DNA from: Echinarachnius parma
Taxonomy: Eukaryota > Echinodermata > Echinoidea > Clypeasteroida > Echinarachniidae
Direction of reading: 5' to 3'
Assembly (NCBI GenBank): GCA_037951105.1
Contig: JBAMJV010008136.1
Coordinates: 1-64,000 of the forward strand
Length of the DNA stretch: 64,000 nt
This document shows positions 22,101 to 43,100 of this stretch, one piece after another. Made by a program: the position numbers and the translations under genes. Within the stretch, counting starts at the first letter, position 1, and the number at the start of each line of letters is the position of its first letter. The notes beneath the pieces were generated by a model. That model did not search any database. It was given only the letters and a program-made list of their open reading frames with translations, and was not told the DNA's origin.

Positions 22101-25100
22101 TGTAATGCATCATTTAGGAGTGTACAGACACTAAAAGTTTGGAACAATTTTGGTCAATTAGAATTTGTAATTAAGTTTGAAAAGAGTGACCAACATTAAT
22201 AACCATAATCTGAAATCTAACCCAAATCCAAACTTTCCCTGAAAATAATCATGTGGCTATATTAAATTTGTCGCTGGAGCCAATGTGTCACTATTGCTAT
22301 GTGTAAAGAATGTTGCGTGTCATCATTTTCATTTGTTTTATTTGTTTTGTTTGTTTTGTTTGCAACAGGTTCTGAAAGGGCTGACATACCTTAGAGATGT
22401 GCATGATATAATGCACAGAGGTAAGTACCAGTCATTAGCTTTCCCTTTACAGCCTAATGCACTGACAGGGGGTGCTTGTGGCTAGTATGCTCCATGGGGA
22501 GTTAAGAAAGTGCACAAGATAACTGCAGGTTTCATATGTGCCCAGATGACAGGGGGTAATAATGATATTTGTGTGCCACAAGTGTTTGCTGACAGATGTG
22601 CATGCATTATAATTATATAATTATTATTATTATTATTATTATTATAGATTTATAGGAGTACAGTTGTGTAAAACATTTAAGAAAAAATAATAATCATTTT
22701 AATGATGCACCATGTTATCATGCTAAATCACATTGCTGGAGCATGTTGCATTGTGCTTGTGATAGTACTTTAGTTGGTATAAGTACTGTTCAAACATGCA
22801 TATTAAACGTGGATGCCATCACAACTCCCTGGGGATCATACTATCCAAGTGCAGCCATAGGGTAGCACTCTGGCCGTTTTCACCCATCAAGGTAGTCTGT
22901 ACCTATTTATACTTTTGGGTTGGGTAGAAATCTGCAATGTGAATTCGCTGTCTTGCTGAATGACACTTTGTTATGTATAGAGCATGATGTGTGATAACAA
23001 AGGATAACAAAGGAGTCACATACTTGAGTACCCACCTAGATATCAGATTCATAATTAACTTGTTTGCATTTGGATTATGTGGTTAACAAAGCATACCTAT
23101 ATTAACCAATTCAAGACTGATGGAATTTACTATAGGGCAATTCCAAGCAAACATTGACATAAGCACCCATTTTTCAAATTCGTCGAATCATAACATATTT
23201 GGTATCAAATTGAAGCTTAAAGATCAAACTATTCAGAAATGCATTTTGTTCAAAAAAAATGTTGCCGTAAACTATTATTTCATAGGAATTAATTAGCATA
23301 AATTAATTTTCAATTATTTTCACAAAAAATACTTGTAAATATTAAGCTTAAAAGAGCTGCAAAAATAGGTTTTCATAACATTTTCTTTCAGTGTTGGTAA
23401 GAACATTACTTCAATTTATCAGATAAATATCTATTTCGGCATTTTCGCTCTTTGTTCTGCTTCAGTGACTGTTTCATTTATAGTCATCTTTATGTCACGC
23501 TGTTACCCTAAAAACAGGTATTTTTAATATTTCTGGAAAAATATGAATGGGAATGAAATTATTTTTTGTTTCTTCTTCATTCACCCATAGAGCTATATTA
23601 TGGATGCTAAGTAGCAGCATTATCTTTTACCACTAATAAATCTAAGCAATATCAATTTGGTCACGCTGTTACTTTTTGGGTAACAGCGTGACGCAACCTA
23701 TATTTTTTTGGCAATATCTCAAGAATCGTTCGATGGATTCTGTTCAAACTTTGTACAAGACATGTATTCAGAGGTATGGATTATCTGATACATTTTGGGG
23801 CCATGAGGTCAAAGGTCAAAGGTCACAGCTAATTAATATGCAAAAAATATATTATTCTCAAGATATTTCAAGAATCCTTGAAGGATGACATGATAATTAA
23901 TACTGGTATGCGTTCAGTGAAGTAGATGGCCTGATTATAGAATTTGGTCATGGGGTCAAAGGTCAACAGGTCAAATTATTGTAGTTTATTTTTTATCTCA
24001 CAAAAAAATGCCAGAATTAATGTTAGAAAGAGTACTGTAGATAAAAGAAAATTCTATGAAAATGTTTGGAGCACAGGTCAAAGGTTACTCGGATAATTAC
24101 CAATTCAAACACAAAAACTTACTGACATTGAAATCATGTTACATGTAACAAATCACTTGTAGATATGCACTGTGCCGACATAAAATTAAACATTTGTATG
24201 CTATTTTGAGAAATAAGGTCAAAGGTCAGATGTCAAAGGTCTAATATTTCATTGTTGCAATTAAGTTTGTATGTTGGGTTTGATATTTGATGGTTCCTCA
24301 AACTAAATTCTGAAAAAGAAAAGAATTTCAGTTTTGTCCAAAAACATTTTTGATCAATAGAGGGCGCTAGGCTGCAAATTTGTGTCATGCGAACCATCAT
24401 TTCAGAGCATCTGGGTTATATTACCCATTCATCTAGTTCTGTATAGAAGATTCTGGATGACTACATCAAAATTATATAATCTTATTCATCTCATCAATAT
24501 CTCCCATATATATAACATGTACAATTCAGAGGTCACGCTGTTACCGTCACGCTGTTACCGTGCACAGATACGTTTATGATATCATATTTACTATGAACAT
24601 TGGATTTTTTCTACATTTTTATTTGGATGTTCTAGCTTGATGTCTAGTACAAAGAATCAATGTGACAAAATTGCAAAATGTTCCTGTAGTTCACAGAGTT
24701 TGCTTAGTTTCTTACCATGTAAGAAACCCATGTCTTTTTGCCGTCACGCTGTTACCGCAGATATTGATATTCATAATTCATAATTTAGTGGGAATTTTGA
24801 TTTTCTTTCCTATTGTAAATAATTGGTAGGATAGGTCGAACAGATGCATATCAAAATTTGGTTCTGGACATTTTTATTTTGTGAGTTATTTAGACTTTCA
24901 TCGTGAGAAACACCCTCCTACCGTCACGCTGTTACCTTGGAATTGCCCTATAACATGCATTCTCCATAGACACCAGCCCGATTATTTTTCGGGACCAGTC
25001 CTGAACCGGTTAAAGGGGTATTCCGGGCCTAATAAAACCATTAGTTATTTGAATAAGCAGAATAAGAGGCATAATTGGTGAAAATTTGATCAAAATCGGA

Positions 25101-40100: not shown

Positions 40101-43100
40101 TTAACTTTGTTGACATGTGGGCAATTCCAAGCAAACATTGACATAACCACTGATTTTTCAAATTCGTTGCACCATAACAAATTTGGTATCAAATGAAAGC
40201 TAAAAGATTGAACTTTCCAAAAATGCATTTTGTTTTTGAAAACAAAAATTGTAAACTATTATTTTATTGTTAATATATAGCATAAATTAATTTTCAGTTA
40301 TTTTCACAAAACATTCAATTAAATATTAAGCATAAAAGAACTGCGAAAAGGAGTTTTCATAAAATTTTATTTCAGTGTTGATAGGATCATTGCTACAATT
40401 TTTCAGATAAATATCAATTTCGTCATTTTCGCTCTTCGTTCCGCTTCAGTGACTGTCTCATTTACAATCATTAATGTGTCACGGCGTTACACTAAAAACA
40501 GATATTTTTAATATTTCTGGAAAAATATGAATGGGAATGAAATAATTTTTTGTTTTCTCTGTATTAGCCCATAGGGCTATAATATGCATGCTGAATAGCA
40601 GCATTATCTTTTACCACTTATTAATATAATCAATATCAATTTGGTCACGGCGTTACGTTTTGTGTAACGCCGTGACGCTACCTACTGGATTCCCATTGAC
40701 ATAACACAGTAGACATAATCAAATAGTGTAAGTTTTTTTTGTAGGTATGCTTGGGCATTGCTCATGCTATAATTATATGAATAGGGTCAGTTGATAATGT
40801 TTCCACCTCAAAGTTACCTGAGTCATGTATGTGTATGGGTTGTATGTCCGTCTGTCTGTATGTGCATCTGTACATCAGTGTTCTTTTTTTTGCAATATCT
40901 CAAGAATCGTTGGATGGATTTCGTTCAAACTTTGTACAATCCATGTATTTAGAGGTACGGATTATTGGATATGATTTTGGTCCATGAGGTCAAAGGTCAA
41001 AGGTCACATAGCTAACAAATATGCAAAAATTATATTATTATCAAGATAGTTTGAGAATCCTTGAAGGATAACATGATAATAATACTGGTATGCGTCCAGT
41101 GAAGTATATGACCTGATTAGGGAATGGGGTCATGGGAGGTCATAGGTCAACAGGTCAAAATATTGTTGTTGTTTTTTGTTCTCACAATTAAGTTCCAGAA
41201 TCAATGTTAGAAAGAGTACTGTAGGTAAAAGACAATTTTCTGAAACTGTTTGGGGCACAGGTCAAAGGTCACTCGGATAATTACCAATTCAAAAACAAAC
41301 ATTTACTAACTCTGAAATCATGTTACATGAAACAAATCACTTGCAAATATGCACTGTGCAGACCAAAAATTAAACATTTGTATGTTATTTTGAGAAACAA
41401 GGTCAAAGGTCAGATGTCAAAGGTCACATATTTCATTGTTACATTTAAGTATGTATTTTGGTTTTAATATTTGATGGTTCCATTAACTAACTTCTGAAAT
41501 AGATAAGAATTTCAATTATGTCCTAAAAGATTTTTTGATCAATAGAGGGCGCTGTGCTGCAAATTTGTGTCATGCGGATGATCATTTAATAGCATCTTGG
41601 TTATATCACCCATTCATCTAGTTCTTTATTGATTCTGGATCACTACATTAAAATTATATCATATTATTCATCTCTTCAATATCTCCCATATATATAACAT
41701 GTACAATTCAAAGGTCACGGCGTTACAGTCACGGCGTTACAGTGCATAGATACATTTATGATATCATATTTACTATGAGCAATAGATTTTTTCTACATTT
41801 TTATTTGGATGTTCTAGCTTGATGTCTAGTACAAAGAATCAATGTGACAAAAGTGCAAAATGTTCCTGTAGTTCACAGAGTTTACTTAGTTTCTTAGCAT
41901 GTAAGAAACCCATGTCTTTTTGCCGTCACGGCGTTACGGCAGATATTGATATTCATAATTAATAATGTATTGGGAATTTTGGTTTTCTTGCCTATTGTAA
42001 ATTATTGGTAGGATAGTGGTTACAGATGCATATCAAAAGTTGGTTCTAGATATTTAGATTTTATGAGTTATTTGGATTTTCATTGTGAGAAACACCCTCT
42101 GACCGTCACGGCGTTTGCTTGGAATTGCCCATGTGCGAAACCTGGCAAATGTATTCTGTGATCTGATATGTCCACTGAGTGATGTGTAAAATCCCATGGT
42201 AAATGAATGTCATATGACTGAGTAATGAGTGAAATTGCAAAGTGATATTTGCTAAACCATTGCTCTGACAGTTATAATTATCCAGTAGATAATTATAAAT
42301 CTGAACACTTCAATCGTACATATCTTTATATCGGAAGAGGAATTTGGAAAACGGAAAGCTGTTCCATGCTTCTTTTGTTAATTAATAAATACAATGAGGT
42401 ATATGAGAAATAAGTAAGTTTTTAGGATTTTTAAAGATGAGACCACTATGTTGTAAATTAAAGAAAAATATCCCCCATCACCAAACAGTCATGGATAAAT
42501 GCAAACATACTTGACATTCAAAGGCTGGAAAAAATACACAACTACATGTAGACACAAGAGAAGAAACCCACAAGGGTGATGGCATTTTCATAAGTCACTT
42601 TTTTATTTGTTTCTTTGTTCGAAGATGTAATCCGTTGCCTGCTTTTGTAGTACATATAATGGAAATCTACCCTTCAAAAGAGGACAAAATTTTGAATGAA
42701 ATGAACTTGAATAAACATCACTTTTGTCAAGGATCTAAATGCCATTTTCTTTGTTGTAACCATAGAAGTAAGTCTATGTTGTAACACACCTTAAAAACCT
42801 CTGCCCTTTGAAAATTGAAAATGGGTGAAATGAAATGAAATTGAGTAAATATCACTGTTGTTTGACTTCATGTTAAGTCATTGTTTGGTAGTATGTTGCG
42901 ACCTTTCAGTCTGGTTCAAGGGTGTAAACTGTGAATTCTTTGTCTGTAAAATGCACCTTATAACCCTGTGCCCTTTCAAAATGGTAAATGGTTAAAATGG
43001 AATGAAATTGAATAAATATCACTATTTTTGAAGATCTATTAAGGCAATTGTCCATTTTTGTAATAATGCACAGGTCTCATAAAGGTCTGTCCTTTCAAAA

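Follow-up and report, generated by a model that had tools for sequence, protein, structure and literature searches.

Introduction

The closest precedents for the case described here are the subfamilies of soybean CACTA transposons and the VANDAL elements of Arabidopsis with their VANC proteins. In soybean, the subterminal repeat consensus of Tgm1 differs from that of Tgmt* at six positions, and the authors proposed that repeats and binding proteins diversify together (PMC2613891). In Arabidopsis, VANC21 binds the motif YAGTATTAY in VANDAL21, a T-type motif is limited to one subgroup, and the motifs of VANC6 differ. Substitution alone was judged too slow by the authors, and tandem repeats were invoked (PMC5735166). 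Here, a 64,000-nt stretch from the echinoid Echinarachnius parma (GenBank assembly GCA_037951105.1, contig JBAMJV010008136.1, positions 1 to 64,000, forward strand; hereafter the window) was analyzed. It carries two related transposons, element 1 and element 2, in which a 13-bp motif at seven matched sites differs as a set.

The En/Spm-type CACTA elements of soybean resemble this pair in that their subterminal motifs occur in direct and inverted orientation, two subfamilies are present in one genome and their consensus differs set-wise. They have CACTA ends and a 3-bp target site duplication (TSD), compared to GGGCAATTCC and 4 bp here, and motif length and number differ as well. The soybean repeats are many and are described without demonstrated matched pairs, whereas the seven sites here align one to one. 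The VANDAL elements likewise carry short dispersed motifs in non-coding transposon DNA. There, the motif spellings of related families are matched to different proteins (PMC5735166; PMC10398659). The encoded VANC protein causes hypomethylation by binding its motifs, and this anti-silencing function was established by experiment. VANDAL motifs are described as spread by tandem repeats, with the C-type in both VANDAL21 subgroups, whereas the present sites differ by substitution at fixed places without mixing. Turnover by tandem repeat formation was therefore rejected for this pair, in which the sites correspond one to one and only sites 4 and 5 are in tandem. The pair would represent an alternative to it, namely substitution at fixed sites. 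Unusual here is that the matched sites record the change for each site individually, on a background of close similarity.

A further likeness is found in Galileo (P superfamily), which has several transposase binding sites up to ~700 bp from the end. Binding by the THAP domain of the G subfamily was weak at the K end and absent at the N end (PMC3688188). The Galileo terminal inverted repeats (TIRs) are long, compared to 13-18 bp here, and the motif is different; in the other Galileo subfamilies no THAP sites were found, as opposed to sites with a switched spelling. The stoperators of Cluster A mycobacteriophages are 13-bp asymmetric sites mostly in one orientation, with a distinct consensus in related phage genomes and repressors that prefer the cognate form (PMC6550527; PMC9283540). 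They serve phage immunity, with 20-30 sites per genome and an encoded repressor, and are an analogy in behavior, not in kinship. The DNA uptake sequence dialects of the Neisseriaceae are dispersed short motifs with one recognition-matched spelling per lineage; being genome-wide and driven by bacterial uptake and recombination, they too are an analogy only (PMC3630211).

Set-wise switch of the motif at seven sites

With at most one mismatch allowed, the motif GTCACGNNGTTAC was found 13 times in the window, compared to a mean of 0.32 (largest 2) after shuffling. All 13 matches are exact and confined to the two elements, with seven in a CT form in element 1 and six in a GC form in element 2 (Table 1). 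Site 7 of element 2 reads GTCACGGCGTTTG. In the alignment, all seven site pairs are at corresponding positions in both elements. The start-to-start spacings are 166, 20, 852 or 1050, 14, 197 and 180 bp, the sites are up to 1.4 kb apart, and six of the seven share one orientation while one is inverted.

Positions 7 and 8 of the motif are CT in element 1 and GC in element 2 at every pair (14 of 14 cells different), which confirms the seven-site switch between homologous copies reported in the first-pass annotation. The base following the motif (position 14) is C, T, C, C, C, C, C in element 1 and A, G, A, A, A, G, C in element 2. It had also been described as differing as a set; the change from pyrimidine to purine holds for six of the seven pairs, the imperfect site 7 being the exception. 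At the remaining 11 motif positions 2 of 77 cells are different, both in site 7, compared to 212 of 1712 in the alignment outside the motif. Fisher tests against this background gave 3e-13 for positions 7 and 8, 2e-5 for position 14 and 0.006 for the other 11 positions. The low divergence at these 11 positions is a footprint of constraint.

When the difference marks were permuted 20,000 times, no motif position was different at all seven sites; the maximum was six, reached in 14 permutations. Sites 4 to 6 are switched though their flanking sequence diverges by just 5-7%. As a further control, words of 9 to 14 bases present at least three times in element 1 (8 bases: at least four times) were traced into element 2. 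The words switched in every copy numbered 4, 3, 2 and 1 at lengths of 8, 9, 10 and 11, and all are pieces of the motif; none was set-switched at lengths 12 to 14 because site 7 breaks the uniformity. The interior repeated word ACCTTTGAC is the same at five of six sites, with one change at the sixth. In a scan of the window for 11-mers, only words of the motif reached six or seven copies within 2.5 kb; other words, mainly in repeat arrays, reached four or five. The word control, the background comparison and the permutations support the earlier statement that independent mutation is no explanation.

In element 1 the sites are 13-558 bp from the nearer end and a stretch of 839 bp between sites 3 and 4 is free of them. 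The motif is thus repeated in both end regions with an empty middle, as in subterminal repeats. In both elements, site 2 and the inverted site 3 make up a perfect 13-bp inverted repeat around a 7-bp spacer (23655-23697 and 40639-40681). This arrangement was kept through the switch, and a strong hairpin is predicted in both copies. As a cause of the switch the hairpin was rejected, since it could link sites 2 and 3 and not the other five. The near-palindromic GC form had been taken as a hint of a dimer binding site. This argument is weak, since GTNAC is itself palindromic, so that direct and inverted symmetry are indistinguishable, and since the switch at position 14 is one-sided.

Table 1. Coordinates of the two elements, their motif sites and the extra stretch of element 2 in the window.
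Feature	Coordinates	Strand	Remarks
Element 1	23135..24948	+	1814-bp non-autonomous TIR transposon, CT-type motif set
Site 1, CT form	23494..23506	+	element 1; pair of 40478-40490
Site 2, CT form	23660..23672	+	element 1; pair of 40644-40656
Site 3, CT form, inverted	23680..23692	-	element 1; pair of 40664-40676
Site 4, CT form	24532..24544	+	element 1; pair of 41714-41726
Site 5, CT form, 14-bp tandem with site 4	24546..24558	+	element 1; pair of 41728-41740
Site 6, CT form	24743..24755	+	element 1; pair of 41925-41937
Site 7, CT form, abuts 3' TIR	24923..24935	+	element 1; pair of 42105-42117
Element 2	40119..42130	+	2012-bp relative of element 1, GC-type motif set
Site 1, GC form	40478..40490	+	element 2
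Site 2, GC form	40644..40656	+	element 2
Site 3, GC form, inverted	40664..40676	-	element 2
197 bp missing from element 1	40685..40881	+	element 2; alignment; BLAST
Site 4, GC form	41714..41726	+	element 2
Site 5, GC form	41728..41740	+	element 2
Site 6, GC form	41925..41937	+	element 2
Site 7, GC core, last two bases TG for AC	42105..42117	+	element 2

Structure and insertion of the two elements

Both elements have exact TIRs of 13 bp (GGGCAATTCCAAG) at both ends and 4-bp TSDs, TATA at element 1 and ATGT at element 2. Their identity is 87.1% over 1810 aligned columns, which qualifies an earlier description of the surrounding DNA as closely similar. For element 1, a related repeat at 32280-32363 runs through the insertion site with a single TATA, and the joined flanks match in 71 of 85 positions. 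For element 2, a related repeat near 34357 matches the joined flanks with a single ATGT. Both elements are therefore precise insertions into older repeats. The target of element 2 belongs to another dispersed repeat family, present in the window as an inverted pair (34366-34722 and 53773-54124). No open reading frame (ORF) of at least 120 aa was found inside either element, and the elements are therefore non-autonomous. With TIRs, TSDs, empty sites and no transposase gene, both copies are non-autonomous TIR cut-and-paste DNA transposons.

A closer assignment was tried for several groups. The ends (GGGCAATTCC) and the TSD length of 4 bp do not agree with CACTA (En/Spm) elements. For Ginger, with TGTNR ends and a 4-bp TSD, the TSD length fits and the ends do not. 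A TTAA duplication is a feature of piggyBac and Kolobok, which were rejected on the TSDs found here.

Site 7 of element 2 had been regarded as decayed in its last bases. This need not be decay, as the changed end lengthens the match between the 3' and 5' TIRs from 13 to 18 bases (GGGCAATTCCAAGCAAAC).

The 197-bp extra stretch of element 2 belongs to an interior module common with a repeat near 60654-61306. This repeat (60630-61440) is bounded, as judged by eye, by GCCTCCG/CGGAGGC-like sequence and contains a 151-bp unit repeated in tandem about 3.8 times. In BLAST, these units are 70-82% similar to the interior of both elements, and the module is thus shared by otherwise different repeats. Elsewhere in the window, at 58347-59952, an ORF for a reverse transcriptase (RVT_1) overlaps a following ORF that is in a different frame and has no Pfam match; the two are perhaps one broken non-LTR retrotransposon. 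Together with the long non-coding stretches and the repeat content, the reverse transcriptase ORF would point to an animal source. A short TTAGGG run of 5.3 copies is located at 86-117. The window gave no match in Rfam.

Age of the divergence and further copies

For each element, 91 motif and 26 TIR bases were compared internally. Element 1 showed 0 mismatches in 117 bases and element 2 showed 2 in 117, corresponding to 95% upper bounds on post-insertion change of 2.5% and 5.3%, respectively. Mutation after insertion would break the uniformity of sites and ends; with so few mismatches, the 12-13% divergence is mostly older than the insertions. The copies thus appear to represent two lineages, each of which was held uniform during its activity. 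Two old subfamilies are the likely setting of the copies, which is close to the situation that the first-pass annotation had named as speaking against its own proposal. With the interior module of the 60.7-kb array as a reference, 5 changes fall on the branch of element 1 and 8 on that of element 2, and 4 are unclear; these counts are uninformative on which motif form is older.

A BLAST search with both elements in the window gave no third copy; apart from the match between the two elements, it returned only the interior module near 60654-61306. No further exact TIR was found in the window, where 20 matches with at most three mismatches compare to 15.5 expected. A near-palindrome at 17878-17898 and GTGACGTTACG at ~34228-34239 were considered and are not members of a comparable set. 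Pattern searches for other copies in viral and prokaryote DNA, where little was expected, gave no match. The exact motif and TIR strings matched no paper in a search that did not extend to most subscription journals and repeat databases, which is no proof that the case is unpublished, and within the same limits few relevant papers on subterminal motif coevolution were found.

Explanations for the switch

All conclusions are based on two copies in one window and on the literature. The sequence itself shows the intact elements, the matched site layout, the uniform switch and the constraint on the remaining motif positions, whereas a binding protein and its identity, the order of events and the relative age of the two forms are inferred. 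The explanation that we consider probable as a whole is that the sites are matched to a lineage-specific protein. The copies would belong, as deletion-type (non-autonomous) members, to two diverged subfamilies of the same cut-and-paste transposon. Each subfamily would have an autonomous partner providing in trans a protein that binds the seven subterminal sites, and this protein would most likely be the transposase or an accessory subunit resembling TnpA. The arrangement of the sites would be older than the split of the subfamilies. After the split, the protein may have come to prefer other bases at motif positions 7, 8 and 14. Elements with matched sites would then have been mobilized better, and under this selection the sites would have been replaced one by one in one lineage or in both. 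Position 14 changed its class and is nevertheless mixed, which argues for selection by a protein of shifted specificity and against one copied template. A protein that shifted to a preference for purine over pyrimidine predicts such a mixed position.

Several points weigh against this explanation. With two copies only, neither recurrence of the switch nor uniformity of other copies has a further case to rest on. The window yielded neither an autonomous element nor a transposase or binding protein, and the motif has no outgroup. In what order the seven sites could have been altered with function retained is left unexplained. As a candidate eighth site beside the 5' TIR, CAAACATTGAC resembles the 3' end of element 2 without being significant (shuffle P 0.20 and 0.14), and for want of a significant motif there the sites are not symmetric about the element ends.

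The sites may instead serve a regulator encoded by the element, for example a sequence-specific VANC-like protein with anti-silencing function or a repressor of the stoperator type, with a target spelling that came to differ between the lineages. The dispersed 9-base motifs bound by VANC21 are located in non-coding VANDAL21 DNA, with the second motif type in one subgroup (PMC5735166), and the present sites are likewise in non-coding DNA with six of seven in one orientation. We regard this as unlikely, since VANC targets grew by tandem repeat turnover, unlike the matched sites here, and since the absence of sites from the middle of the element and the contact of one of them with the TIR better suit end recognition. 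A transposase or TnpA-like subunit would be favored over a regulator by the subterminal placing, by the position of site 7 directly at the 3' TIR and by the inverted arrangement of sites 2 and 3.

A templated or conversion-like process that rewrote the site set from one donor sequence could account for the same two-base change at seven sites over as much as 1.4 kb, one of them inverted. However, the flanks of different sites of one element are unrelated (mean identity 0.31 and 0.27), compared to 0.86 for matched flanks, and tracts would be limited to about 13-14 bp. Long-tract conversion was rejected on the same grounds, as matched flanks were kept and flanks between sites are near random. One template should give one base at position 14, which is uniform in neither copy, and site 7 of element 2 keeps its TG end. 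A donor matched along the whole element merely shifts the question of origin. Overall, such a process is quite improbable. Of the two alternatives put forward in the first-pass annotation, changed protein specificity is thus favored, whereas rewriting from a single template is disfavored by the mixed position 14 and by sites that keep their own flanks.

It is very improbable that the sites are bound by a host factor that changed its preference, or that each subfamily became adapted to a host factor of its own. A motif of 13-14 bp in which positions are constrained does resemble a protein site. Both forms are found 17 kb apart in the same genome, however, which would call for a change of preference between two bursts or for two factors, and within the window the motif (at most one mismatch) is confined to the elements.

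Neutral divergence, mutation bias or chance is practically negligible. In its favor, the C/T difference at position 8 falls in a CpG context, and of the 13 background CpGs of element 2, four correspond to TG in element 1. Against it, the change at position 7 is C/G, a type present in 9 of the 528 G/C columns of the background, and the CpG at positions 5 and 6 is intact at 14 of 14 sites; these two observations rule out CpG decay as the cause. At background rates the chance of CT to GC is ~5.6e-4 per site and ~1e-22.8 for seven.

Significance

Sites matched to a lineage-specific protein also allow a more far-reaching and rather doubtful idea. The motif spelling could be a recognition dialect isolating two co-resident transposon lineages in an animal genome, with the set changed base by base at fixed places and the copies recording the rewriting of a multi-site DNA-protein specificity. 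Such a dialect could also be the animal equivalent of sequence-specific anti-silencing. As the whole set would have changed base by base at fixed places, half-converted intermediate elements must then have been mobile.

It is an open question how specificity can change jointly in a protein and in its many binding sites, since altering either alone breaks the match. Seven matched, switched sites on an 87% identical background are an unusually clean record of the end states of such a change. If only two old subfamilies exist, the pair would be a neat example of the known divergence of transposases and their sites. If the genome holds intermediates, the order of the changes would be readable and each form could be tested against its protein.

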